In this document: positions 11,254 through 27,668 of the stretch, piece by piece | Layout of the letters: each line of letters starts with the position of its first letter | Position numbering within the stretch: position 1 is the first letter of the stretch | Assembly: GCA_018654845.1 (NCBI GenBank) | Contig: JABIKU010000032.1 | Coordinates: 1 to 64,000, forward strand | Origin: Methanobacteriota archaeon | GTDB taxonomy: Archaea > Thermoplasmatota > Poseidoniia > Poseidoniales > Thalassarchaeaceae | Direction of reading: 5' to 3' | Length of the DNA: 64,000 nucleotides | Made by a program: the position numbers and the translations under genes | The notes under the pieces: generated by a model | Seen by the model: the letters and a program-made list of their open reading frames with translations, nothing else | What the model was told of the DNA's origin: nothing | Database searches by the model: none

Positions 11254-12522
11254 ATGTCGGGCATGAATGTCTTGGTTGTCGGTGGCGGCGGACGTGAGCA
11301 TGCTTTGGTAATAGGCTTGAATGAAAGCCCATCTGTCGATGCCATACACATTGCTCCTGGAAATGCTGGAACCGCTGTACTGGGCTTGAATCATCAGGTA
11401 GAGGCAGGAGATGTGGATGGCCTAGTTTCTCTTTCTCAACATCTTGAAGTTGATCTCGTTATCGTTGGTCCGGAGGGGCCACTCGTAGATGGGTTGGCCG
11501 ACCGACTCCGAGAAGTGGGCATATCTTGTTTTGGTCCACATTCAGCTGGAGCTGAATTGGAGGGTTCGAAATTACATGCAAAGAAAATTATGCAAGAATT
11601 AAACATTCCAACTGCTGGAATTATTTTGATTGAAAATTCCGAGCGCATCAAAGAGGCGCTCGATACATTTTCACCACCTTGGGTTGTAAAAAGAGATGTA
11701 TTAGCTGGCGGCAAAGGGGTTGTTGTGACTGAATCTCGAAAAGAGGCTTATGAGGCACTATCCTATGGTCTAGAAAGCGATGGTTTTGTTCTTCTCGAAG
11801 AATTTTTATCAGGTGAAGAAGCCTCAGTTTTGGTGATAATGGATGAATCAGGTTATGTCTGTTTACCACCAAGTCAAGATCACAAACGGGTTGGTGATGG
11901 AGATTCTGGACCCAATACTGGTGGTATGGGTGCATATGCTCCAGCGCCAATCGCAACTGCTGCGGTGATGCAGAGAGCGATTGATGAGATTATTGAACCA
12001 ATGCATCATTATTTGCGCAATCAGAAAATACCCTACCGGGGTTGTCTCTATGTTGGGTTGATGATCGATGAAAATCGCGCTCCAAATGTAGTCGAATATA
12101 ACGTCCGATTTGGCGATCCAGAGACTCAGGTTACAGTGCCTTTGATTGCCAGCGATTTGGGTCAACTTCTGTTATCGGCAGCTGAAGGTCGGTTGTCAGA
12201 ATTTGATGTAGAGTTTCATAATTATTCGGCTGCGACGATTGTACTTGCCTCTGAGGGTTATCCAGCCTCATCAAAAACTGGCAGGGAAATTTTTTGCTAT
12301 GACACAATAATAGACGAAGGGCATATTCAGGCCTTTGTCCATCATGCGGGAACAGGAGTTTCTGAGGCGGGATCTGTTGTGTCAACGGGTGGCCGCGTGC
12401 TTGCAGCAACCGGAATTGCGCCTGATTTGAATTCAGCCGTCAACGCGGCTTATGAAATAATTGAAAGTATCAAATTAGATGGTTCGCATTACCGTTCTGA
12501 CATTGCTTTTCGGGCACTTTGA
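11254..12522 (+). CDS. purD: Phosphoribosylamine-glycine ligase (PurD)
   Basis: A 422-residue ATP-grasp enzyme joining phosphoribosylamine and glycine to give GAR, the second step of purine synthesis (EC 6.3.4.13). The N-terminal motif VLVVGGGGREHAL and GNAGT are typical of PurD. The ATP-grasp core includes VVKRDVLAGGKGVVV, the loop EEFLSGEEASVL, the motif DHKRVGDGDSGPNTGGMGAY and the metal-binding segment EYNVRFGDPETQ. The length matches the family average (about 425). ATG 11263 (residue 4) is an alternative start. It is monocistronic or co-transcribed with carS; no other pur gene is in the window. Confidence 0.97.
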   Translation: MSGMNVLVVGGGGREHALVIGLNESPSVDAIHIAPGNAGTAVLGLNHQVEAGDVDGLVSLSQHLEVDLVIVGPEGPLVDGLADRLREVGISCFGPHSAGAELEGSKLHAKKIMQELNIPTAGIILIENSERIKEALDTFSPPWVVKRDVLAGGKGVVVTESRKEAYEALSYGLESDGFVLLEEFLSGEEASVLVIMDESGYVCLPPSQDHKRVGDGDSGPNTGGMGAYAPAPIATAAVMQRAIDEIIEPMHHYLRNQKIPYRGCLYVGLMIDENRAPNVVEYNVRFGDPETQVTVPLIASDLGQLLLSAAEGRLSEFDVEFHNYSAATIVLASEGYPASSKTGREIFCYDTIIDEGHIQAFVHHAGTGVSEAGSVVSTGGRVLAATGIAPDLNSAVNAAYEIIESIKLDGSHYRSDIAFRAL

Positions 12523-12629: not shown

Positions 12630-12635
12630 GGTGAT
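12630..12635 (+). promoter_or_regulatory. Shine-Dalgarno site deciding the aglB start
   Basis: GGTGAT five bases before ATG 12641 fits the archaeal anti-SD and favours this ATG over the upstream in-frame TTG 12635. Confidence 0.6.
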
Positions 12636-12640
12636 TGATA

Positions 12641-15600
12641 ATGAACGAAATGAAATATGCAAAGGATAGTGATTTTCCAATAGGAAATCTCCTTCCGGCT
12701 CCTGCTGTACTAGTGACTTTACTGGTACTATTCTTTGGAGCTGATTTCCTTGCAAATGGCAATATAGAAAATGACGGATATATGAACATCCTGATTCTGC
12801 CAATTGCTGCAGCATTTGCTGCGGCACTAGGCCGAATCGCTACTACTATTTCCCTCAGTAATTCATTCACCTCGAAACACCGAGCAGCAATTATTTCACT
12901 CGGATTTTTCGTCGCTTCAATAGTTGTGATTAATGCTGGACTAACATCTACGATTATCGGATTCACATTCGCATTGGTTGGTATATCCACATTTGCGCTT
13001 ATTTTGAACAATAGGAATGAAGAATCATCAATTCTTCTATCAATTGTTATCGGATTTCATCTCGCAGTTGCTTATTCGGCTCGACATGTATTCGATGACA
13101 GTAATTGGTCAGGCAGCGCAGCAGAGATGATTGATGCAGCTCGAGCTGCAAGTGGTTCGATGTTTTTTGCATTCTGGGCTGCGGCAATAGTTCTGGGTTT
13201 ATTCCTCACATTGGCAATGCGTGGTAGAATCGAAGAAGCCGGATCAGGTTCTTGGTTTTCTGATATTCCACAGGTTTTTGGAATTGAAAGTCTCTCATTT
13301 GTGGGTGCAATTTTTGTTACAAACTTGATTCCAGTGATTTGGCTTGGTCAAATCGATGATTTACAAGTTTTCACTAACCACCATTATCTTGGTTCTGTTT
13401 GGGCATTATTTACATCGGTAGTTATCGTTTTCCTCGCATTCTGTCATGCAGAACGCTGGCATGTATTGGGAACACTTGCCGGAGTAAACTGGACAATGTA
13501 CACCTTTGGACATCTACAAGAAATAGGTAATAGTTTTCCTGAATTGCTTTCAGGTAATAGTTTCACCAGCACAATCGCTTGGTTCTTCTTGGCTTTCTGG
13601 TTGAATGTTGGTGGGGTAATGATAGCATCTCGTGGTTACTTTGGTGATATTGCTCCTATGCGACAGAAATCAGATATTCGCCGCTGGTGGCAAGCTCACT
13701 CGTATGGTATTTTAGTCGGTTCAGCAGTACTTATTGGTCTAGCGGTTCGAACTGGCTGGAACATCCTTCCTGCTATGAATGCATCAGGAACTGGACTTTG
13801 GGATATGACTGGAGGCTCTGACCCTTGGTACATGAAGCGAGTTGTCGATTATATCATCGCAGAACGCAGTCACTACATCTTTGACGCCGATCGTGCTTAC
13901 CCAATGGGTGCCATCAATCCTCGGCCGCCACTTTTCTCGTGGTCGTTAGCACTTGGTGGAATCGGTCTTTCTTGGCTTACCGGAATTGCAGCAGAAGAGG
14001 TTGCATGGTGGAGCGTTGCCGCTATGCCAGCAATCTTTGGTGCATTAATCGTTTTACCAATAGCTGGATTAGCAAGTCGAGTTCATAGTAAGCAAGCAGG
14101 AATATTTGCTGCTTGGCTTATCGCTTTGATGCCAGGTCATATCAGTCATTCCACATTTGGTTTGGCGGATCACGACGCTTTCGCTCTGCTATTCCTCGCT
14201 TTGGCATTTTACTTCTGGGTTAAAGCAGTTGAACAAATTAAGAATGAAAGGATGTTCTCAAATCCTAGTTCAAATCCACTCTATCTTTTCGCTGGAATTA
14301 GAGAAATGTGGTCTCGCAGCCCTGCTGTGATGGCCAATGCTACTCTTTCTGGAATTTCATTTGCAACTGTTGCACTTGGTTGGAAAGGTTTTGTTTACGG
14401 ACCAGGGATTCTATTCCTTGCATTCGCTGGACAAATTTTCCTGAATATGATTCGTCGCCGTGACAGTCTACCATTGACTTCGGCAGCTCTACAAATGATG
14501 CTTACTACTTTCTTGATTCCATTTCCATTCTACATATGGCCTGGATTAAATCTTTTATTCGACCCAAGTGGATTCCAACCGATGTTCTATATCATTGGAT
14601 TTACCCTTGCTCTCGGTTGGGTTACATGTTCATTCCGAGACAAGCCTTGGCTTCTTGTTCTAGGTAGTGGAATATTCCTAATGGGTGGAATTTTAGGTTT
14701 ACTATATGTTCTACAATACGCAGAAATTTACAATGGTTGGGACATTCTCTTTACCGGTGGTTTCTACTTCTCTAAGAACAAGATTTTCGGAACAATTGGT
14801 GAGGCACAAGCACCAAGTCGTGGAGTTCTTTTCGCTTCGTATGGGCCTATTGTATTCCTAATATCAATCGGTGTTGCTTGTATCATGATTTGGAAAGGTG
14901 CAAGAAAGGAGAGGCAAGGAGATATGCTACTCGGGCTCTGGGTTTTCATCGCAGCATACATGGCTTTCTCAGCAGGCCGTTTCATCTTTAACGCTACACC
15001 TGCTATGGCTGTTGTAGGCGGAATTGGAATTTCGTCGATGTGGCAACGTGCTAATTTCGTCAACTTCGCTAAGGAATGGCGCCGGTCTGGTATTGGAACA
15101 CCTCGAACACGGTTCCGATCTATTTGGCCTGCTACCAAGAGAAATCCTGGCATACCAGCAATGTTGATGGTAATATTGATGATTTCCTCACAACACATGA
15201 CTTACGGAATAGACTCCGGTATCCCACGTGGTGAAGATTCAGCAACCGATGTAGACCAAACAATTCATGACATTGCACCAGATATCTTCAGACTTGAAGC
15301 CCTCGGCTTATCAATTCTAAACAGCAATAATTACGATCCAGACAGTGGAAAACTTTGGTACATGGGCACATTCGGTCCTGGTTTCAATTCCGGTTCTTGG
15401 AATATGGCTTATGACTGGTTAGCAGAACAAGATTCTGACGTTTCATTTTCTGAGCGACCCGCATTCGTTTCGTGGTGGGATTATGGTTTCCAAGCTTTAG
15501 CACAAGGTCAGCACCCAACAGTAGCTGATAACTTCCAGTCCGGTATTCCAAATAGTGGAGCAATGTTACTGGCTGCTGGACAAGACGATACGCTTTCGTT

Positions 15601-18600
15601 ATTCATCACAACTCTCGCTCAAGGTGACCGCCGATACAATGGTGGTCAAGGATTCACCGATGAATTCAACGACATTCTATTGTCACACATGAGCGATGCT
15701 CAAATAGAAGAATTCAACTCAATTATTAGTCTTGCAGTTGGTGACTCAGCAATTGTTGAGTCACGCGCACTAGCGATAATGGCTTCTGATGACAATGTTG
15801 AACTATTGTTTGGCGGTATACTTGCTGATGATGGTACATTAGAATTAGAAGACCAATGGAAGGTTCGCGTAGATGGTGAACAATATGGTAACCTATCAAC
15901 CGACCAGTCAGAGGCGATGTCTCTCTACAACGAGGCGCGTTCAAGTGTTGGAGAATTTGATTTAGAGGTTGAATACTACGAAATTGGTGGTTATTTATAC
16001 ACCCCTGATTTGATTATAGATTTTGACGATGTTTCAACGGGTCTTCATCGTACAAATGCAAGATTATCTCTTAGTCGAGCATTCCTCTTAGAGGCCTTCG
16101 ATAATGATCAACTCACCGATATGTATCATGATATGACAACAAGCATCGAGTATGATGTACAAGATTACGAAGGTAGCCTTGGAGAATTGATAACTCGAAA
16201 TAACGACATCCGATACTTTGCTGTCGATAACAGACTATACCCACTTGGAGGTAAGTATTACGAAGATTATTCCTATCATCGAGGACAGACTACTGGAATT
16301 TTCCATGCACCTACTACTCTTTCGGGGTTAGATACTGATACATACATCTCATCCCTTTATCTTACACAGAGAGGAGACGGACCGATAATTCCTCGAACAG
16401 TTGAAGAATTCAATTTAGAGTATCAGAATGATATCATCCGCAATCAATACAATGGTCAAAACGACGCAAGCGATATTATTCGTATGGTCGATATTGATTA
16501 TCAACACCAGCCGGAATTTTTCGAAACCATGGTTGCACGAATATACGTGGGATACGGTACCTCGACTCTCGGTTTGGCAGGGGATGCAGAACAACCAATG
16601 CCTCATTTCTATACGAGTGGTGCTCCTGGTTCATATCTAGAAAATGCCTACCCCCTTCCAGGTGCTATGATGAACGATCTAGTTCTTTCGAATTGGTACG
16701 ACGCAGAGCGTTGTGAAGTAGATGAAAACGGAACAATGCTTGACTCAACTTGTACGAACCCTACCATCGGTTCTGCAAATACTCAAGTCAAGATAATGAA
16801 ATACTATAGTGGTGCAACTCTAGAAGGGACTGTCGAATTAGATGGCTATGGAGTGGTTCCTAATGCTCGCATATTGATTGAGCGTGATGCATTTAGCGGC
16901 GATGAAATCGCTGTTGATGGAGAAGTCGTAGATCGAGATGACAGAACTTATTGGATTCCAATTGGAACTACTGATGCTGATGAAAACGGCAGATATAGTT
17001 TCCAAGCACCAGCAGGTAAGATTCGTGTCACGGCATTTTTCGGTGAATCTGATCTTGTATCTGCTCGAACTCAGATTATGACTTCAGATATTCAATCTAC
17101 TTTCGGCGATATATTCGAAGCTTCAACAACCGGAGTAAGATCAATTAATCCAGTTACTGGAATTCTTGGCAATGTTTCTGGTTCAACGTGGTTATCTGAG
17201 ACCATCGTTAATATTTCTGGTGAAGATGGGCACAGTAATGGAGACGCTCACATCGATGCTCCAATAATTGTCAACCCTGCTCACGCTACAGGCCGCCTAG
17301 TTTGGACTGGTTCAGAATTTTTCGATGGGGATTCAGTTACCAATGTCACGATCGAACTCACCCCTGCTTGGGATGAGATTGAACTTGAACCATATGTGTT
17401 ATCAACTTCAGTTGGGACTGTCGAGGGTGAAAACCTAAGATTTGAAGGTCTTGGAGAAGTAACATTTACTGGAGATGGTTCAGTAGTTTCTCAAAGTATT
17501 ATGACTGCAACTGATTTCACTGGTAATTTCACTCAAGTCATTTATCATAATCACAGTTTGACTGGTGACGGAGAATTCTCCGGGCGAGGTTTGCTCGATG
17601 GAACGGTTAACGATGATATCGAAATTACCGATTGTGATGAGAATGATACCATGCCAGAAGACTTTGGCCTTTGTATGACTTCATCTGGAGAATATTTGTT
17701 GGAAGGAACCGTAAATGCGACCGGCCGATTTACAGCAAATGGTTCATCTTCTTTCACACAAAAGTACACTCATGCAACGCTGATTGGAAGTGGTGTGTTC
17801 TCGACTAACACGACGATGGATCTAGAATCATACGGGACTCTAAATGGATCAGGAATCTTTACCGGTGAAGGAATATTTGGTGGAGAAATGGTCGAGCCAG
17901 GTACATTCCATATCGTCGATGCAATCCCTGGTAATTACGATGTGACTATTGTCTTTGATGATGATCGTCGAATTGAAATTAATGATGGATTTACGATTCC
18001 TCAAATGGCTGTAAATTATATCACTAAGATTGATATTAACGGTGGAGCTCTCTTTGGTTTACTAATCAATCCTGAAGGTGAAGCCGTTAATGGAACAGTT
18101 ATTCTCCGCGATATTGACACGGTTGCAGCAGATATTGTCGATAATTGTGAAGATACGGGACAAGCTCCTTGTTTGATTACACCTGATGAAGATGGCAAAT
18201 TTGAATTCGGACCTATTATTCCTGGTGAATATATAGCAGAAATCGATATTGATGGAGATGGATTCAGCGAATTATCTGAAAATTACTTCTTTGATGCGAA
18301 TGAGACATCCGAATTTGAATTCCCAATGCCGGTTCCTATGACCTCTGATGTCAACTTCGGTTTATTCCAGATAGTAGACGGTGTAGATGAAGAAATTGCT
18401 GACCTAAATGTTAGTTTCCACCTGAAAGATGGAAGTGGTAATCCTGTCGAAGCAATTTATGATTCAGACGCTGGTTCGTATTATGTAGAGTTAACAGAAG
18501 GTATTTGGATTCTAAATCACACACTTTCGAATGAAGACCAACTCTGGGAGCAGATTGAGATTGGTTCCGATGATTTTAGTGCAGATTATTATTTCCATAC

Positions 18601-21600
18601 TAGCCAATTGGTGACTGGAACGGTTTACTATAATGAAGATGCAAATCTAGATACACCTCTGAATGAATCCAAAACTCTCGATCATGTTCAAGTTGACTTC
18701 AATTGGGATGGATTTAGCACCTCGGTTCAAACCGATGGGGAGGGGCATTTCTCAGTAGTTCTCCCTCAAGGGTCTACAGTAGATGCAACAGTTCAACTCG
18801 GTGAAAATCTCAAATTAGTCGATGGAATTCATTTCACTGTCGAGGAGGGAATGGATGCAATTTCAATCGATGCTCGGCCAGGCTATGGTGTAGCGGGTGC
18901 GATTAACATTAATCGAATAGGTAATAGTTACAACGCAAATCTTGGTGGTTGGGAATCTGTAGTAGTTATTGCTACGAATTCTGATTATGATGTGACATGG
19001 CGAGCTGGAACTGATGAGAACGGACTATTCCAAATGGTTCTCCCCAAAGGGGAGTGGGAATTCACTCTCGAAGATAGTGAATGGTTGTCCCCTGATACCA
19101 ATATAACAAATGTTGATGGAATCAATAATACGGTGGAAATCTTGGTATATCCTGCAAATACAAATGTAGAAATTGATTTCTTCCTAGACAATTCCGAAGA
19201 TAATAATGCTTCAAACGGGACTGCTGTGACTTATGATTTCACAATCATTTCGATGATGAACGCAGGAATTGATTATCCAATTCAATCTAATGGGACCGAA
19301 TGGACTAGTGTCGGTCACGCACAGGTTCCAATTGAACCCGGAATATATCGAATAGAGGTTGATATTTCCGATGCGAACGAGGGTGACTTATTCGGAACTC
19401 GCATCATGAGCGGCGATGTTCTTATCGACATTGGTCTTGATGGCACCGTTGTTGAACGGGCTATTGGTTTTGATCCTGAGTGGCGCGTTAGTATTGCTTT
19501 CACAAACGAAAGCGGCGGCATCTTAGCTGAACAATTAGTTAGATTTACCAATACAGAAAGTAATTGGATCCTTTCAAGAATTACTGATGATAATGGCATA
19601 ATTAACGATTTCATTGGTGAGGGCGATTGGGTCGTCTCAACCGATGTGGAATCGGTGGGAATATCAGAAGGATTACGTGAGTTGATTTCGGTTTCTGTCG
19701 ATAACGCGGAATTGGATTTAGAAATGTCTACTAGCGAATTGGCACAAGTCTCTTTCACTCTCTATGAAGATAATTCAGCAAACCCTATTGGTGATGTGCG
19801 ATTAAATCTTGAATCTACAGATGGGTTAGGCTCTTTCAGTATCGAGAATACCAATTCTGAAGGAATGGTCACTATCGATCTAGTTCCAGGAAATTGGGAT
19901 GTGTCATTGGATTACATGGACTATGGCAAACAATGGTTGGTCGAATCCATGCCAATTTCAGTCGATGTTGGTGGAGATAATGATTACAATATTACTGCTC
20001 AATTATTTGTAGAACTCAGTGGTACAATCTTCTGGGATTTGAACGATAACAATGAGGCCAATGCGGTTGAAGGAATCGTCAATGTCACTTTGATGATTTT
20101 CGATAGTGAGGGGGTGTTAGAAGCAAATCTCACGACAGATAACAACGGCGATTGGAGTTATTATGTTCCTGCTGAGACGGCTTGGCAACTCAATACTTCA
20201 TACGAAGGATTCGAGGATGTCAGTCGTGCAGTTTCGGTTGGGAGCTCCTCTAACAGTATCGATATTGAATTAACAGCTGGTCAAGTTTTGACATCAGGAA
20301 TAATCTCGTATATCGATGAAACACAATTCTCTTCAATCTCCGATTCAATTGTTCTTGAGTTAATCCCAACAGAGGGATTGATTCGAGATAACATCACTCC
20401 AGAAAAGATTCTGGAAGATGGTGAGTGGAATGGGAATTGGTCAGCAATGGTAGAACCAGGCAATTGGATACTGCGTGCTAGTGTTGCCGATCAAAATTTA
20501 GTTGCTATGGGATTGATTGATGCAAGCGTAGTAGACGGTGGAACCCTAGATGTTTCATTATCCAATGGTGGAATTTTATCCATCGAGACACACTGGTTAG
20601 ATTATGATGGAAATTCATTTACTCTTGCTGATGTTGTAGATTCTGAATTAGTTCTTGATCTAGGTCTTGGCTTAGAATGGATTGGTGAAACCGATGAGGA
20701 CGGTGGAATGAGCATCCTACTACCAAATGGTCGAGTCGATCTTCGAAGTGAATTTGAGGTTCACCAGATGGACAGAAACATGTCCTACATTGGAGGCCAA
20801 GGAATTGATATTCATGCTGGTCAAGAAACTCCTAAGATTACATTAACACATGCACGAACTGCAGATCATTCAATTGATGTTACTACGTTGAATTTGACTA
20901 GCGGTGATGATTCATACATCGGTTCCGCTGGAGATGTCACGGTCGTTGTCGATGATGAGAACGGCTTTGTACCAGTAGAGTTTGTATTAGCTGTAGATTA
21001 TCTCGGCCACGAATCGTTCGACTCTTACTCAGTCGGTGCACTTGTGACTGGTTCTGATTCTACAGATTGGGTTGTCGAGTTCCACAATGGTTCAGGCGAT
21101 TGGAATATTTCTACTACTTTCGATATAGGATTAGATAATTCAGTTTCGTTCACTGATTTGCACGTCAGAGTGACTCCAGCAGAACAAAATGTATCTCATT
21201 CTTTCATAGAAGGCCACACGATATCTATTCAATTCTCAACCCAAGATGGCTTCTTCCAAGCTCATGATGTCTTGGTGAAAGTTCCACAGTTGCACGGTTT
21301 CGAACTTTCCGAGCCGATGGATGATGTGTATGGTATTTCTATTGGGGAGTCAAAGCAAATTGGTATTAAATTCACAAATTCTGGAAATGGTGATGAAAGA
21401 TACGAATTCGAATTTGATGATTCTGAACTCCCTGTGAGTTGGGAAAGAACTGGAGCAACTTCACACACGATTGGTGGATTTGTCAGCTCAACCCATACTA
21501 TCATCGTCACCGCTCCTGCAAATGCTACAGGTGAAGAGGATTTCACAATCTATGTCTCGGTAACCGATAAGGTAAATGGCACTTATGATACAATTGAAAT

Positions 21601-22078
21601 TAATGTGAGAACTTCAGAACCAGTTTTGAAAATATTAGATTTCGCAACATCGAGTGGTGATGCAGGACAAGTGGAAACAGGAACCAAGGTAAATTATCTC
21701 GTGACCGTTGAGAATAGTGGTCTCGTGGATGCATCTTTGGTACAAGTGAATGCAACTCTTTGCGAAGATATCCATTGCGCTGAACCAACTGATGTTTCAG
21801 CAATAGCAATCAAGGATGTTCCTGCTGGAACTTCCGTGTCATTTAGTTTAGTCATTGATCTATCTGATGTTGTTATTGGACCATATTATATTAATTTCGA
21901 TATCAATTCAAGTGGTTTCAACTCTGTTGAAGAATTCCCTGCGAAGAACGTCGATGTCCGTTCACCTTCAGTTGATGGAACAACCGATTGGATTGGATGG
22001 TTACTAGGTGCAATGTTGTTAATCGCAGCATTCCTATTAACCAAAACTCGTTCACGCCGACCCAATGCACCGTTCTGA
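12641..22078 (+). CDS. aglB: Giant STT3/AglB oligosaccharyltransferase with N-terminal membrane and C-terminal repeat extensions
   Basis: A 3145-residue protein, three to four times the usual AglB length (about 600-1000). AglB transfers the lipid-linked glycan to Asn in N-X-S/T sequons on the outer face of the membrane. Motifs seen: the first acidic motif DPW at 394-396, the second D-H-D at 510-512, the conserved RPPLF segment after the first loop, and the acceptor-site motif WWDYG at 945-949. The spacing of these matches archaeal AglB, but about 345 residues with many hydrophobic helices precede the normal first helix. After the usual soluble domain, roughly residues 1390-2890 are a chain of beta-sandwich units resembling carboxypeptidase-regulatory or SdrB repeats (TDADENGRYSFQAPAG, TDENGLFQMVLPKG, TDEDGGMSILLPNG). 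A NEW3-like domain (near 2900) and a CARDB-like domain follow. A final helix at about 3117-3136 ends in basic RSRRPNAPF. ATG 12641 is chosen for its Shine-Dalgarno site. Confidence 0.9.
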   Translation: MNEMKYAKDSDFPIGNLLPAPAVLVTLLVLFFGADFLANGNIENDGYMNILILPIAAAFAAALGRIATTISLSNSFTSKHRAAIISLGFFVASIVVINAGLTSTIIGFTFALVGISTFALILNNRNEESSILLSIVIGFHLAVAYSARHVFDDSNWSGSAAEMIDAARAASGSMFFAFWAAAIVLGLFLTLAMRGRIEEAGSGSWFSDIPQVFGIESLSFVGAIFVTNLIPVIWLGQIDDLQVFTNHHYLGSVWALFTSVVIVFLAFCHAERWHVLGTLAGVNWTMYTFGHLQEIGNSFPELLSGNSFTSTIAWFFLAFWLNVGGVMIASRGYFGDIAPMRQKSDIRRWWQAHSYGILVGSAVLIGLAVRTGWNILPAMNASGTGLWDMTGGSDPWYMKRVVDYIIAERSHYIFDADRAYPMGAINPRPPLFSWSLALGGIGLSWLTGIAAEEVAWWSVAAMPAIFGALIVLPIAGLASRVHSKQAGIFAAWLIALMPGHISHSTFGLADHDAFALLFLALAFYFWVKAVEQIKNERMFSNPSSNPLYLFAGIREMWSRSPAVMANATLSGISFATVALGWKGFVYGPGILFLAFAGQIFLNMIRRRDSLPLTSAALQMMLTTFLIPFPFYIWPGLNLLFDPSGFQPMFYIIGFTLALGWVTCSFRDKPWLLVLGSGIFLMGGILGLLYVLQYAEIYNGWDILFTGGFYFSKNKIFGTIGEAQAPSRGVLFASYGPIVFLISIGVACIMIWKGARKERQGDMLLGLWVFIAAYMAFSAGRFIFNATPAMAVVGGIGISSMWQRANFVNFAKEWRRSGIGTPRTRFRSIWPATKRNPGIPAMLMVILMISSQHMTYGIDSGIPRGEDSATDVDQTIHDIAPDIFRLEALGLSILNSNNYDPDSGKLWYMGTFGPGFNSGSWNMAYDWLAEQDSDVSFSERPAFVSWWDYGFQALAQGQHPTVADNFQSGIPNSGAMLLAAGQDDTLSLFITTLAQGDRRYNGGQGFTDEFNDILLSHMSDAQIEEFNSIISLAVGDSAIVESRALAIMASDDNVELLFGGILADDGTLELEDQWKVRVDGEQYGNLSTDQSEAMSLYNEARSSVGEFDLEVEYYEIGGYLYTPDLIIDFDDVSTGLHRTNARLSLSRAFLLEAFDNDQLTDMYHDMTTSIEYDVQDYEGSLGELITRNNDIRYFAVDNRLYPLGGKYYEDYSYHRGQTTGIFHAPTTLSGLDTDTYISSLYLTQRGDGPIIPRTVEEFNLEYQNDIIRNQYNGQNDASDIIRMVDIDYQHQPEFFETMVARIYVGYGTSTLGLAGDAEQPMPHFYTSGAPGSYLENAYPLPGAMMNDLVLSNWYDAERCEVDENGTMLDSTCTNPTIGSANTQVKIMKYYSGATLEGTVELDGYGVVPNARILIERDAFSGDEIAVDGEVVDRDDRTYWIPIGTTDADENGRYSFQAPAGKIRVTAFFGESDLVSARTQIMTSDIQSTFGDIFEASTTGVRSINPVTGILGNVSGSTWLSETIVNISGEDGHSNGDAHIDAPIIVNPAHATGRLVWTGSEFFDGDSVTNVTIELTPAWDEIELEPYVLSTSVGTVEGENLRFEGLGEVTFTGDGSVVSQSIMTATDFTGNFTQVIYHNHSLTGDGEFSGRGLLDGTVNDDIEITDCDENDTMPEDFGLCMTSSGEYLLEGTVNATGRFTANGSSSFTQKYTHATLIGSGVFSTNTTMDLESYGTLNGSGIFTGEGIFGGEMVEPGTFHIVDAIPGNYDVTIVFDDDRRIEINDGFTIPQMAVNYITKIDINGGALFGLLINPEGEAVNGTVILRDIDTVAADIVDNCEDTGQAPCLITPDEDGKFEFGPIIPGEYIAEIDIDGDGFSELSENYFFDANETSEFEFPMPVPMTSDVNFGLFQIVDGVDEEIADLNVSFHLKDGSGNPVEAIYDSDAGSYYVELTEGIWILNHTLSNEDQLWEQIEIGSDDFSADYYFHTSQLVTGTVYYNEDANLDTPLNESKTLDHVQVDFNWDGFSTSVQTDGEGHFSVVLPQGSTVDATVQLGENLKLVDGIHFTVEEGMDAISIDARPGYGVAGAININRIGNSYNANLGGWESVVVIATNSDYDVTWRAGTDENGLFQMVLPKGEWEFTLEDSEWLSPDTNITNVDGINNTVEILVYPANTNVEIDFFLDNSEDNNASNGTAVTYDFTIISMMNAGIDYPIQSNGTEWTSVGHAQVPIEPGIYRIEVDISDANEGDLFGTRIMSGDVLIDIGLDGTVVERAIGFDPEWRVSIAFTNESGGILAEQLVRFTNTESNWILSRITDDNGIINDFIGEGDWVVSTDVESVGISEGLRELISVSVDNAELDLEMSTSELAQVSFTLYEDNSANPIGDVRLNLESTDGLGSFSIENTNSEGMVTIDLVPGNWDVSLDYMDYGKQWLVESMPISVDVGGDNDYNITAQLFVELSGTIFWDLNDNNEANAVEGIVNVTLMIFDSEGVLEANLTTDNNGDWSYYVPAETAWQLNTSYEGFEDVSRAVSVGSSSNSIDIELTAGQVLTSGIISYIDETQFSSISDSIVLELIPTEGLIRDNITPEKILEDGEWNGNWSAMVEPGNWILRASVADQNLVAMGLIDASVVDGGTLDVSLSNGGILSIETHWLDYDGNSFTLADVVDSELVLDLGLGLEWIGETDEDGGMSILLPNGRVDLRSEFEVHQMDRNMSYIGGQGIDIHAGQETPKITLTHARTADHSIDVTTLNLTSGDDSYIGSAGDVTVVVDDENGFVPVEFVLAVDYLGHESFDSYSVGALVTGSDSTDWVVEFHNGSGDWNISTTFDIGLDNSVSFTDLHVRVTPAEQNVSHSFIEGHTISIQFSTQDGFFQAHDVLVKVPQLHGFELSEPMDDVYGISIGESKQIGIKFTNSGNGDERYEFEFDDSELPVSWERTGATSHTIGGFVSSTHTIIVTAPANATGEEDFTIYVSVTDKVNGTYDTIEINVRTSEPVLKILDFATSSGDAGQVETGTKVNYLVTVENSGLVDASLVQVNATLCEDIHCAEPTDVSAIAIKDVPAGTSVSFSLVIDLSDVVIGPYYINFDINSSGFNSVEEFPAKNVDVRSPSVDGTTDWIGWLLGAMLLIAAFLLTKTRSRRPNAPF

Positions 22079-22105: not shown

Positions 22106-22125
22106 AATGATTGGTAGGAATTGAG

Positions 22126-23364
22126 ATGAGGTCACTGGAAGGATTGGAGTTACTTCCCGAACCCGAAGATCATCGAATTCTAACTGCAGTCGACCCAACA
22201 GCACCAGGCTATCCTGGCAAAGATTACGGCATTAGCGATGAAGATGCAAAGGAACTTCGTTGGCCGGCTGGGCCGATTAAGGAATTTTTGTGGCCATGGG
22301 GTGCTGTAATGTTTTCAATTGGGACGGTTTTCCTAATCGTCGCATGGCCATGGATTAATGCTTATTTGGCTCCTGTTTTGCCAAATTCTGAATGGGCTTT
22401 TGAGGAAACCGGAATTCGAGAATTACAAAGTTTAGGTCTCGATGGTAGTGGAATTCATGTTTGTATTGTCGACACTGGGATAGACATGAACCACCCCGAT
22501 TTTGCACATCAAAATATAGTTGGATTTAGAGATTTTTATTCTGGGCAACACGATGTTATTCGTGATGTCGGTGAAGAATATCACGGAACACTAATGGCTG
22601 GTATTTTGATAGCAAATGGAACCTTTAGAGGTGCTGTGCCCAATATCGATCTGTCTGTTGCTCTTGCACTCGGCCCTGAAGGTAGTTCAGGTCAAGGTGA
22701 CAAAGTGGCACAAGCTATCAGATGGTGTCGGATAACAGAACGTGTTGATATCATCAGTCTCAGTTTAGGTGGTGAGTCTGGAGATGGAATGACTCAACAT
22801 TCGGCTACTGCTGCCGCGGTTCAAGAAGCACTTGATGTAGGTATATTTGTTGTTGCAGCAGCAGGAAATACAGGACTCGACACGGATATCAATGATGTTT
22901 CAACACCCTCAAGTATTGAGGGCGTTATTTCTGTTGGAGCACAAACAAAGAGTGGCTCTGTTTGGAGTAGAAGCGCATACGGCTCACAGAGTGACCCATC
23001 CACGGGATTAGATAGAATTTATCCAAATCAAAAACCAGAAATCATTGCTCCTGGAGTTAATATTTTTTCAACCGCATCCACCGATCTTGCAGCGAACTAC
23101 GCATACTCTTCAGGAACCAGTGATTCAACAGTATTCGTTACGGGTGCTCTTGCATTGATATTACAATTATATGGAGACGAAATTGCCGGTGATGATGGTG
23201 TAATAGATGCATCTGAAATCGACTTAGTAAAACGAAACCTTGCAATTTCTGCAAATCGAAACGATTTCGATACTAATACACATGATTCTCACTTTGGATA
23301 TGGCAAATTAGATGCAATGAAATGGGCCGAAGCCATTGCTTTTGAATTGAATATTGATAACTAA
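22126..23364 (+). CDS. Membrane-anchored subtilisin-family (S8) serine protease
   Basis: A 412-residue S8 peptidase. A cytosolic N-terminus of about 50 residues precedes a single membrane helix (AVMFSIGTVFLIVAWPW), so the catalytic domain is outside but tethered. The catalytic triad is visible: Asp116 in CIVDTGIDMNHPDF, His153 in EEYHGTLMAGIL and Ser332 in SGTSDSTVFVTGALAL. The oxyanion-hole Asn is in VVAAAGNTG. The Ser motif is unusual (GTSDST instead of GTSMAT), and there is no propeptide between helix and catalytic domain beyond a short linker. It lies directly downstream of aglB, which suggests a job at the cell surface such as processing of glycosylated proteins; that is inference. TTG 22111 is an upstream alternative start; ATG 22126 is preferred. 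Confidence 0.88.
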   Translation: MRSLEGLELLPEPEDHRILTAVDPTAPGYPGKDYGISDEDAKELRWPAGPIKEFLWPWGAVMFSIGTVFLIVAWPWINAYLAPVLPNSEWAFEETGIRELQSLGLDGSGIHVCIVDTGIDMNHPDFAHQNIVGFRDFYSGQHDVIRDVGEEYHGTLMAGILIANGTFRGAVPNIDLSVALALGPEGSSGQGDKVAQAIRWCRITERVDIISLSLGGESGDGMTQHSATAAAVQEALDVGIFVVAAAGNTGLDTDINDVSTPSSIEGVISVGAQTKSGSVWSRSAYGSQSDPSTGLDRIYPNQKPEIIAPGVNIFSTASTDLAANYAYSSGTSDSTVFVTGALALILQLYGDEIAGDDGVIDASEIDLVKRNLAISANRNDFDTNTHDSHFGYGKLDAMKWAEAIAFELNIDN

Positions 23365-23420: not shown

Positions 23421-26400
23421 ATGATTAAATCACTATTCGAACCCGCAAATTACATGACTGACCCACGTGCGAGAAGTTACTTCCTTGTTTTCCTGATGTT
23501 CTCGAGTGTATTGGTCGCATTAGTAGGGCCTGCAAGTATAGTTTTGGCAAATAACGAAACGACCGCTGGAACAATTGCCGGAACTGAAGTTTGGTCTGGT
23601 ACGCATCAACTAACTGACGACATTACAATCGCTGCCGGTGCCAAGCTGATTATTGAACCTGGAACTATAGTTATTTTTCCAAATGGAACTTATCTCGACG
23701 TTCGTGGAAACCTCTGTGCTGGAAAAGCCTCTTGTGGCGCCAGTGGCGATTCAAGTGCTGCTAATAAAATAACATTCAGATGGACAAATCCCATCGACGA
23801 TCAAGCAAATGGAACTTGTTTGGGAATGTCTGAGGGCACCCAGGACATCGACATTAACGACCCATCATGCTTTGAGGGAATTTTAATTCGAAGTTCGATT
23901 GATCTTTCACAAACCGGACTTCGACATATGACATTCGATGGGGCTTGGGGAATTCCATACTTTATTGATTCAGTAAACCGTTGGAGGTATGGTGTAATGG
24001 TTATCGATGGTGCTGCACCGACGTTGACGGAAATGGTATTCACTGATATCAATACTAGCAGTGTTCTGACCACTAATTTAGCACAACCTACTTTTGTTGG
24101 CGGTGAATATATTGCAGGAAATGACGCAGAGAGTGATGTTGGTGGTTCCGCTGTTCAAATCTACGGTTCTGGGACACATATTTCTCCATTGATAATGGAT
24201 TCTCCTTCTTTCGTTGGAACAAATAATGGCTGTGGTCGAAGAGATGGTGGCCGACCAACCGTTTGGGCTGAAGACACATTTATCGAAATTAATGATGCAA
24301 GTGTTGGAATCGGAGATTATGGATTTAGTTTAATCAATTCAGCAGGTCATGTAATTAATTCCGTAATGAGTGTGAATTGTAATGCAATTGAAATCAATAG
24401 CCACAAAGCAATTCAAGGTGTTGATTATGAATTCGAAATTTCAAATAACGAACTTACTACTGGTGAAGGAGCAGGAATTTATGCTTATGATGGGGCGATA
24501 GCTGAACTATTCAATAATGAAGTTTCAGGAGCAAGCGACGCATCTGGAATTTCAATATCATCTAGTAAAGTGAATATGCATGATAACGATATTGGACCCA
24601 TTGGAGGGTGGAATGGAATTTGGTTAATCGGTTCATACGATGTAATGGCTGAGCGAAACAATATAGTTAATACAGCCAAAGAGCCACTTCGTGCGGGAGA
24701 ATTTGGTAGCCAAGCTCCTTCTCCTGCTGCTTCCCGCCTATATTTCGTAAACAATACAATTACACAAAATTCGCCAGGAGTTTGCTCCAGTACCAAATAT
24801 TGGGGAGGAGATTATACTTGCCCTGCTGTAAGCGTATTCCGAACTGGAGTAACATTGAAAGATAATCAAATCAGTGTTGGAGGTGATGCAGATGGAATCC
24901 GTGCTATCGGAGCTATTCTGGATGTTCAAAGAAATACGTTCGACGTTGGAAGCACCGGCGCAATTATCAAACATTATGATGATGGTTATGCCAATTCCCA
25001 ACAATATGGTTCGTTAGCGTTCTTTTCTCAAAATATGTGGAATGGTGTGGCCACTACCTACAATGTCACCAAATCTTCAGTTACAGTTCAGTCAGAATAT
25101 ATCCCTAGCCCTCCTGCGGGAATTAATCCCGTATTGCTTTCTTGGCCAGATCAAGAAGCTTGGCCTGCTAATAACTTTCAAAACGCGATTCTCCCTACTC
25201 CCGTTTCAGAGTGCTCCACTTGCAATAACCTGGCTCCCATCGATTTCCCTCTGGCAATATCGATGGATAATAACTCAACAACCTTCACGTTTGCTAATTT
25301 ATCGAATCTTGATCGTTCGAAAATAAATATTGCGACTCAACCGACTCCATTTGCAGTTCAGGTGCGTCGAGCGGAGATGGTCCGATTCCAAACTTTAGTC
25401 AACGGTGAGCGAGTTGAAAACGCGAATGTTTTGATTGAAGATGCGCTAGGGAACGATATATATTCATTACATACTAATCAAGATGGATATACCCCCTGGT
25501 TCGCTTTACCCTCGGATTTTCACCTTGACTTCAGGGGTTTAGCGGGGGGAGATAATCCTGATGGATTTGCAGATGATGAATATGAAGATTCATGCTCGGA
25601 TGGAATCGATAACGATGGAGATTTAATTATTGATACTGACGATGAAGATTGCAATGATGCGGCAGGAACCCGTGAATTTTCGCGATATTTCTATTCTGCT
25701 TACAAATTTGGTTTTGGATACGTTAGAGGGGAGTTCACATTAGATGATACTACATATCAAGAAACGGTTAATCTTGTCAATGAAGGCCCAACTATGATGG
25801 TCACTCAAAATGAAGGCCATTCATTCCGAAAAATTGTTAATTTCACTGGTTCCGCTCACGACGGACAATTAGCAGGTTTCTACGCTACAGATGAATTAGC
25901 TCAATGGGATCAACAAGGATATGTTCACTCCATCGAAATTAGAGATCCATTCACCAGCGAATGGGTTGAGGCGGGTCTTGCCGTCGATGATAGTGGAATG
26001 GAAACAGGAACCGTAACTAGATACAATCATCCATTTTCTGATTGGTATTATTCTTTCGATATGTCTAATCGTCAAGAAGGCGATTACACCTTTGAATTCC
26101 GCGCATTTGATGGTGTCGATTACAGTCCGATAATTTCCCGAACAATCAAATTGAATACAGTAGCACCGACGATTTCGGTCTCGACACCAAGCGACCATTC
26201 AACCTGGTCAGAAGGTATGATTACTTTCGAAGGAACCGCCTACGATCAATACGGTTGTCCTCTTGATTGTAGTAAGGACGTCGGCGAGGTATACTTCCAT
26301 ATCAGTGGCCCTAATTTTGAGGGTGTCACACCTACATCAGGTGGTTCTGATTGGAGTTGGACTTGGGACTTTAGTGGTCAACCTAGGACCATTGCAGAAT

Positions 26401-27668
26401 ATACATTTACAATCTGGGCATCCGATGAAAATTTCTGCATCGGAGTGATTGAGGAATGTGAGCCAGTAGTTCTTACTTTAACAGTGGATAATTCCAATTC
26501 GATACCGTTTGTGAGCTTGATTTCACCACAAGATAATGAGAGAATGTCAGTTGGAGAAAATTCTCAGATTCAAGGGGTAGCTAGAGATAATGATGGCGAA
26601 GTATCTAGAATCGATATTACTGTCCGAGATATTTTCAATGGCGGAGTAATTGTCCACGAGCAAGCAGTGACTGAAATATTGCCTAATGGTGGCTGGGTCG
26701 CCGACTGGGATTCGACACATTTGATTCATGATTACCAATATTCGATTGAAGTCACTGCATTTGACGGATATGATTACAGTGAGATGACAACCATCGTTAT
26801 CACTGCTGATAATCCACCAGATGCTGGAAATAATCAACCCTCATTTGATTCAACAAATTGGGTACAAGAAATCACACTTTATTGTGAAATCGAATCCCAA
26901 TCTCAAGATCGCTGTACCAAAGGCACAATTGATTTAATGCAATTCTTTTCTGATGCCGATGTTAATCAAGAATTGATATTATCAGTTTACGATAATCCTG
27001 AACTCACTTCGGATGACAGATATGGTCTTGTAATCAACGTCGGTGTCGATGGTATTGCTGTCTATGATCCGATTTCTATGTTTTTCTATGATACAGACAT
27101 GGATACTTGGACATTAGAAGATGTTGTATTTGTCGCAACTGACCCCCATGGCTCGAAAATGAACTCGATGCCAGTATCATTCACAATCGCCGGAATAGAT
27201 TTCAAAATATTTTCTCCCGAATCAACTCGAATTAATAGTGGCGAAATAGCAATATTCACAGGAGTGGCACTACCTGGAAAAACCGTAGTAGTAACCATTG
27301 ATGGGAATCCTGTCAACAATACAATTGTTAGTGACAATGCCACCTGGATTCTTGGAATACCTTCATCAAGGATTTTGGGAGGTTCAGCAATCCCTGAATT
27401 CCGTTATTCTGGAGAAATTTACCAAGGAGAGAAAATCTATGTTGGAGAAGTTGACGAAGGCATGTCATTGATGAAGATGATTATAATCTCGATTGTAATA
27501 TTAGGAATGGCCGGAGGCGCATTTGTATACTTCTTTGTGGAAATCGAAGATGACGAAGAATCTACTGACTCTGAATCAGAGGAAAGCACAGATGAATCTA
27601 GCACCGATGGATGGATTTGGGATGAAGAATCTGAAGAATGGATAGAAGATCCAAACTACAATAATTGA
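23421..27668 (+). CDS. Large beta-helix/Ig-like surface protein with acidic cytoplasmic tail
   Basis: A 1415-residue surface protein. The signal peptide or first helix is about residues 15-42; ATG 23454 (residue 12) could be the true start. Residues about 50-560 are a right-handed parallel beta-helix of the NosD/PbH1 type, opened by the common lead-in LTDDITIAAGAKLIIEPGT. Near 723-745 is a Cys-bounded acidic stretch of the CSDGIDNDGDLIIDTDDEDC type, a likely calcium-binding loop seen in many secreted proteins. Several Ig-like domains follow (for example PTISVSTPSDHSTW and IPFVSLISPQDNE). A membrane helix near residues 1350-1375 leads to an acidic tail containing DGWIWDEESEEW, an aromatic/acidic motif. 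The role is probably adhesion or polymer binding; no catalytic residues were identified. It belongs to the aglB-subtilase run of genes. Confidence 0.75.
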   Translation: MIKSLFEPANYMTDPRARSYFLVFLMFSSVLVALVGPASIVLANNETTAGTIAGTEVWSGTHQLTDDITIAAGAKLIIEPGTIVIFPNGTYLDVRGNLCAGKASCGASGDSSAANKITFRWTNPIDDQANGTCLGMSEGTQDIDINDPSCFEGILIRSSIDLSQTGLRHMTFDGAWGIPYFIDSVNRWRYGVMVIDGAAPTLTEMVFTDINTSSVLTTNLAQPTFVGGEYIAGNDAESDVGGSAVQIYGSGTHISPLIMDSPSFVGTNNGCGRRDGGRPTVWAEDTFIEINDASVGIGDYGFSLINSAGHVINSVMSVNCNAIEINSHKAIQGVDYEFEISNNELTTGEGAGIYAYDGAIAELFNNEVSGASDASGISISSSKVNMHDNDIGPIGGWNGIWLIGSYDVMAERNNIVNTAKEPLRAGEFGSQAPSPAASRLYFVNNTITQNSPGVCSSTKYWGGDYTCPAVSVFRTGVTLKDNQISVGGDADGIRAIGAILDVQRNTFDVGSTGAIIKHYDDGYANSQQYGSLAFFSQNMWNGVATTYNVTKSSVTVQSEYIPSPPAGINPVLLSWPDQEAWPANNFQNAILPTPVSECSTCNNLAPIDFPLAISMDNNSTTFTFANLSNLDRSKINIATQPTPFAVQVRRAEMVRFQTLVNGERVENANVLIEDALGNDIYSLHTNQDGYTPWFALPSDFHLDFRGLAGGDNPDGFADDEYEDSCSDGIDNDGDLIIDTDDEDCNDAAGTREFSRYFYSAYKFGFGYVRGEFTLDDTTYQETVNLVNEGPTMMVTQNEGHSFRKIVNFTGSAHDGQLAGFYATDELAQWDQQGYVHSIEIRDPFTSEWVEAGLAVDDSGMETGTVTRYNHPFSDWYYSFDMSNRQEGDYTFEFRAFDGVDYSPIISRTIKLNTVAPTISVSTPSDHSTWSEGMITFEGTAYDQYGCPLDCSKDVGEVYFHISGPNFEGVTPTSGGSDWSWTWDFSGQPRTIAEYTFTIWASDENFCIGVIEECEPVVLTLTVDNSNSIPFVSLISPQDNERMSVGENSQIQGVARDNDGEVSRIDITVRDIFNGGVIVHEQAVTEILPNGGWVADWDSTHLIHDYQYSIEVTAFDGYDYSEMTTIVITADNPPDAGNNQPSFDSTNWVQEITLYCEIESQSQDRCTKGTIDLMQFFSDADVNQELILSVYDNPELTSDDRYGLVINVGVDGIAVYDPISMFFYDTDMDTWTLEDVVFVATDPHGSKMNSMPVSFTIAGIDFKIFSPESTRINSGEIAIFTGVALPGKTVVVTIDGNPVNNTIVSDNATWILGIPSSRILGGSAIPEFRYSGEIYQGEKIYVGEVDEGMSLMKMIIISIVILGMAGGAFVYFFVEIEDDEESTDSESEESTDESSTDGWIWDEESEEWIEDPNYNN

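Follow-up and report, generated by a model that had tools for sequence, protein, structure and literature searches.

A conserved giant AglB of Poseidoniales with an N-terminal membrane domain and a sequon-rich ectodomain, probably an N-glycosylated surface arch

The window, a 64,000-nt stretch of contig JABIKU010000032.1, carries the aglB gene at 12641..22078 on the + strand, and all features of the window described below lie on this strand. The gene encodes 3145 aa in one uninterrupted frame, from the ATG at 12641 to the stop codon at 22076-22078. A TTG is found two codons 5′ of this ATG (at 12635), and the relatives align at the ATG. Upstream lies purD (11254..12522; Pfam GARS). Downstream are genes for a membrane-anchored S8 subtilase with one N-terminal membrane segment (22111..23364) and for an exported beta-helix/Big_7 protein of 1415 aa (23421..27668). 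The order purD, aglB, S8 subtilase, beta-helix, with the genes close together on one strand, is kept in both Poseidoniales families wherever the flank was covered. No homologues of these neighbours were observed at the aglB loci of MGIII and other Thermoplasmatota in the flanks covered.

As judged by sequence comparison, the product is an AglB/STT3 oligosaccharyltransferase (GT66). PF02516 (STT3) matched residues 393-652 (E = 1.9e-18; 67.6 bits for a cut-off of 24.5), and PDB searches aligned solved AglB chains (875 residues) to 362-653 and fragments of AglB to about 918-986. Among NCBIfam models, the nearest was TIGR04154 (oligosaccharyltransferase of archaeosortase A systems), which covered residues 358-979 with 155.7 bits, below its cut-off of 450. 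Together with motif alignment, the Pfam and PDB matches place the GT-C membrane part and the catalytic core, extracellular by the known topology of AglB, at residues 346-1395 (13676..16825). The alignment located the first catalytic Asp motif GGSDPWY (D394; 13811..13831), the second acidic motif DHD (residues 510-512; 14168..14176), the external-loop-5 motif TIxE as TIGE (718-721; 14792..14803) and WWDYG (945-949; 15473..15487). Since all four are intact and can be aligned across 27 proteins spanning the phylum, the enzyme looks active. At 86% completeness, the genome gave a match to the STT3 family at only one place. The original prediction had described a continuous 9.4-kb frame for a 3145-residue AglB with an N-terminal membrane extension and a giant repeat ectodomain. 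The unbroken frame, the Pfam match and the relatives agree with this description, and D394 and the WWDYG at 945 are exactly where it had placed them.

Residues 1-345 (12641..13675) form the N-terminal membrane domain, delimited by hydrophobic segments, model helix borders, K/R bias and a profile. The roughly 345 extra hydrophobic residues predicted in front of the enzyme correspond to about ten membrane segments ahead of the catalytic D394. A structure model of residues 1-375 (mean pLDDT 47, ten sequences in the alignment) was used for helix boundaries only. Over 32 sequences, 350 K/R were counted in inside loops versus 57 in outside loops, a clear positive-inside pattern that points to ten helices with the N-terminus inside and both ends in the cytoplasm; the first STT3 helix would therefore be oriented as usual. 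Evolution of the domain is rapid, with a mean identity of about 0.26-0.32 to other Poseidoniales, but the residues G138, E271, W314 and F319 are invariant. Profile searches of Pfam and PDB gave nothing credible. A profile built on the first 360 residues matched 47 Poseidoniales genomes at strong scores, with one marginal match elsewhere and none in the five MGIII genomes sampled, and the matched domain always preceded AglB or lay at the end of a contig. Two AglBs from other Thermoplasmatota (L116 and L117, families f13 and f20) have an N-terminal membrane extension of their own, of about 245 residues. A relationship between the f13 and f20 extensions and that of Poseidoniales was rejected (hhalign probability 0.3%).

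The catalytic core is followed by a sequon-rich ectodomain, residues 1396-3110 (16826..21970), defined by sequon counts and by collinear alignment with AglBs of other Thermoplasmatota. Offsets in profile self-alignment gave modules every 92-94 residues over about residues 1535-2700 (17243..20740). These are predicted to be all-beta by a low-confidence model of residues 1380-2480 (mean pLDDT 40, ten sequences in the alignment), of which only this all-beta character was used. The profile of 1380-2480 matched no PDB structure, the part beyond 2480 being searched with a single-sequence query. Carboxypeptidase-regulatory-like units had been proposed in this region together with NEW3- and CARDB-like domains. 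In Pfam, one CarboxypepD_reg domain was above cut-off (residues 2477-2544), the NEW3- and CARDB-like domains were not confirmed, and Ig-like HYDIN and DUF11 matches near residue 3000 were sub-threshold. No S-layer Pfam family was matched by the aglB product, and no relative of the ectodomain was detected at E<0.01 in the rest of the genome sequence sampled. The motif DIDGDG (1869-1874; 18245..18262), with Asp 1869, 1871 and 1873 invariant among aligned relatives, looks like a putative calcium-binding loop.

The final membrane anchor of the original prediction was recovered as a hydrophobic segment at residues 3115-3133 (21983..22039), followed by a basic tail, KTRSRRPNAPF. With this last helix and basic tail, the ectodomain should therefore be rooted in the membrane at both ends, and could form an arch or, alternatively, a folded bundle. 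The last residue (22073-22075 in the window) is Phe in the aligned full-length Poseidoniales AglBs (APF, SRF, TKF), preceded by a variable tail, and is possibly a C-terminal signal.

An STT3 match was present in 58 of 60 related genomes. Exactly one was found in 140 of 146 Poseidoniales genomes, most of them with a single frame of >3000 residues. The full-length Poseidoniales AglBs examined measure about 3124-3232 aa. Their first Asp lies at about 380-424, and they end with a C-terminal membrane helix and a basic tail. Every relative readable end to end is around three times the usual AglB length; a longer frame, in L058, crosses an assembly gap. The comparison of length among relatives, suggested by the original prediction, thus came out in favour of conservation across Poseidoniales, and the architecture of the giant AglB and its conservation are secure. 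No description of it was found in the open-licence papers searched; it is a genuine, conserved and seemingly unreported form of a familiar enzyme. Such proteins may have escaped published STT3 surveys: in the open reviews of one STT3 phylogeny, a referee objected to the discarding of over-long sequences (PMC4973528).

Across the phylum, some families have STT3 open frames of about 900-1450 residues, and many others have frames of 1800-2750 residues. The Poseidoniales ectodomain and C-terminal anchor are collinear with the tails of AglBs of 2000-2750 aa from much of Thermoplasmatota. Alignments with the core and ectodomain profile, obtained also for MGIII AglBs, remain collinear for as many as about 1000-1250 residues (L130, 1092-2316; L118, 1446-2403), although, the repeats being alike, this may partly represent cross-alignment between modules. 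The long AglBs, of about 1800-2750 aa, found in MGIII and other Thermoplasmatota thus share the catalytic part, a collinear ectodomain and, in most full reads, the final membrane helix, but their ectodomain is shorter and they have no homologous N-terminal domain. Since the stalk is widespread in Thermoplasmatota and the N-terminal domain is confined to Poseidoniales, the two are, on this distribution in sequences, separate additions of different age. The giant AglB, first thought unusual, is therefore no oddity of one genome. On a quick catalytic-domain tree, long AglBs require two changes, and a single origin is possible. AglBs of ordinary length (about 910-1000 aa) occur in L103, L092, L097 and L101 (families f15, f21 and f23) and belong to a catalytic clade that separates deeply from the others. 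A second STT3 match is also present in several of the genomes with ordinary-length AglB.

Residues 1400-3112 of the window AglB contain 36 N-x-S/T sequons compared to 17.6 expected from composition, and 15 copies of the reversed motif. No excess was observed in the N-terminal and catalytic parts of the same protein, nor in the proteins encoded downstream of aglB. Pooled ectodomains showed an excess of 2.05x in family f1, 2.53x in f2 and 2.66x in other Thermoplasmatota; the ratio for the reversed motif was close to 1. The excess was weaker in MGIII (1.41x). The catalytic part was sequon-enriched too in the MGIII and other Thermoplasmatota sampled. As controls from the same genome, drawn from the window and about 280 kb of its other contigs, 133 cytosolic proteins gave 0.97x and 26 exported proteins 1.10x. 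The latter value led us to reject a general sequon richness of exported beta-rich proteins. One clear exception is an S8 subtilase of 2095 aa encoded elsewhere in the same genome (L161:4984-11268, - strand), which contains Ig-like domains and carries 42 sequons for 20.5 expected (16 reversed) and may be another major N-glycoprotein. In Poseidoniales pairs of <45% identity, ectodomain sequons occupied the same column in 29% of comparisons against 11% for the reversed motif, so selection appears to hold them. Most other control motifs shared a column in 3-12% of comparisons; N-x-A/G, at 24%, calls for caution.

Taken together, these results suggest that the ectodomain is probably an N-glycosylated surface arch. 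Its being a glycoprotein has good support from the sequence statistics. We propose a single-subunit AglB carrying two extra built-in parts. The first would be a membrane domain of about ten helices, specific to Poseidoniales and placed in front of the catalytic part, and the second an ectodomain of about 1700 residues of beta modules after the core, which a C-terminal helix would bring back to the membrane as an arch. Judging from its intact motifs, the catalytic part would work like that of other AglBs, moving glycan from the lipid carrier onto N-x-S/T sites. The ectodomain, exported past such active sites, would be N-glycosylated at tens of sites. As a single STT3 gene was found, glycosylation, if any, would therefore be carried out by AglB's own kind of active site; the same enzyme is the simplest agent, and glycosylation of the ectodomain by its own catalytic domain is plausible. 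We infer from these features the glycosylation itself, its origin in the same or a neighbouring molecule, the arch-like geometry and the function as a coat. The outcome would be an enzyme that doubles as a cell-surface glycoprotein, in the form of an arch or of a coat element. We judge the chances of this reading to be about even; the weaker excess in MGIII, the enriched catalytic parts of the MGIII and other Thermoplasmatota sampled and the N-x-A/G control count against it. Of the roles suggested earlier for the stalk, that of a surface-layer element is favoured by the sequon enrichment, while that of presenting acceptors takes another form, the stalk itself being the acceptor. None of the results speaks to the third suggested role, the sensing of glycan density.

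Alternatively, the ectodomain could be mainly a working scaffold that holds or positions exported substrates near the active site, a task that would fall to the accessory subunits in the eukaryotic oligosaccharyltransferase, its own glycans serving only for protection or stability. In every case the ectodomain is part of the enzyme chain and has a membrane attachment on either side, and its best-conserved stretch comes directly after the core (mean identity to relatives of about 0.40-0.55 at residues 1401-1800, compared to about 0.25-0.38 later), all of which would suit this function. However, the profile of 1380-2480 matches no solved structure and hence no oligosaccharyltransferase subunit, and a pure scaffold alone predicts no twofold sequon excess. 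We therefore hold a scaffold to be possible but rather doubtful. A protease, perhaps the adjoining S8 subtilase, could also split AglB into two products, the enzyme and an independent surface glycoprotein. The neighbourhood allows such processing, a membrane-anchored S8 subtilase following aglB in both Poseidoniales families wherever the flank was covered. Nevertheless, there is no known cleavage site, and the same type of ectodomain occurs in MGIII and other Thermoplasmatota with no S8 homologue in the flanks covered, which makes a precursor improbable.

Neutral growth, in which beta modules were duplicated and retained without a particular role, would fit the mutual similarity of the modules with their 92-94 residue period and the difference in total AglB length between families. 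It seems very improbable given a length nearly constant within Poseidoniales and sequon columns conserved beyond controls. As for an assembly artefact fusing two genes, the few broken frames among relatives (at residue 1541/1544 in L043 and 2693 in L040) are single shifts with the remainder directly following, and the single frames of >3000 residues in most of the 140 genomes leave it a negligible probability; whole-length conservation across Poseidoniales excludes a chance or assembly joint. Among 20 further short frames fetched, most reach a contig end and a few show isolated breaks at no recurring site. A split into separate genes at the domain borders, considered in the original prediction, was thus not observed.

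Compared with the solved archaeal AglB (PDB 3WAJ / 5GMY, 875 aa), the giant AglB shares the catalytic motifs, the GT-C membrane part and the extracellular core, but is extended by about 345 membrane residues on the N-terminal side and by about 1700 extracellular residues plus a membrane anchor on the C-terminal side. In the eukaryotic oligosaccharyltransferase, the STT3 core is surrounded by accessory subunits (Ost1, Wbp1, Swp1) with lumenal domains and membrane anchors. The likeness is loose, consisting of extra anchored lumenal or extracellular domains around an STT3 core; these belong to several chains in the eukaryotic complex and to one in the giant AglB, with no sequence relation as judged by the PDB search with the 1380-2480 profile. 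Archaeal S-layer glycoproteins are large beta-domain surface proteins that are rich in sequons and anchored in the membrane at the C-terminus, features shared by the AglB ectodomain. In contrast to them, the latter is part of an enzyme and matches no S-layer family.

A classical S-layer is absent in many Thermoplasmatota. Cell coating combined with glycosylation in cis is put forward here as a hypothesis. A coat role needs a high abundance of AglB. In a metatranscriptome study, an oligosaccharyltransferase, filed under lipid metabolism, was among 16 genes more abundant where the MGIIb genus O1 was active (PMC9723583). In its broadest form, which we consider unlikely, the proposal would make AglB a main surface glycoprotein of Thermoplasmatota, with the cis-glycosylated ectodomain as the coat and the N-terminal domain as a new integral oligosaccharyltransferase module of Poseidoniales. 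If true, a single gene would set the abundance of the enzyme together with the density of the coat and the supply of glycan.

To our knowledge, little has been established about the cell surface of Poseidoniales. In the plankton of surface ocean waters, these organisms have been described as the most abundant archaea (PMC6461757). If the proposed reading is true, one conserved protein, at once N-glycosylation enzyme and probably a heavily glycosylated surface structure, would explain part of the cell surface of Poseidoniales. It would also represent a new mode of building an oligosaccharyltransferase, in which extra domains are fused in one chain and not added as subunits.
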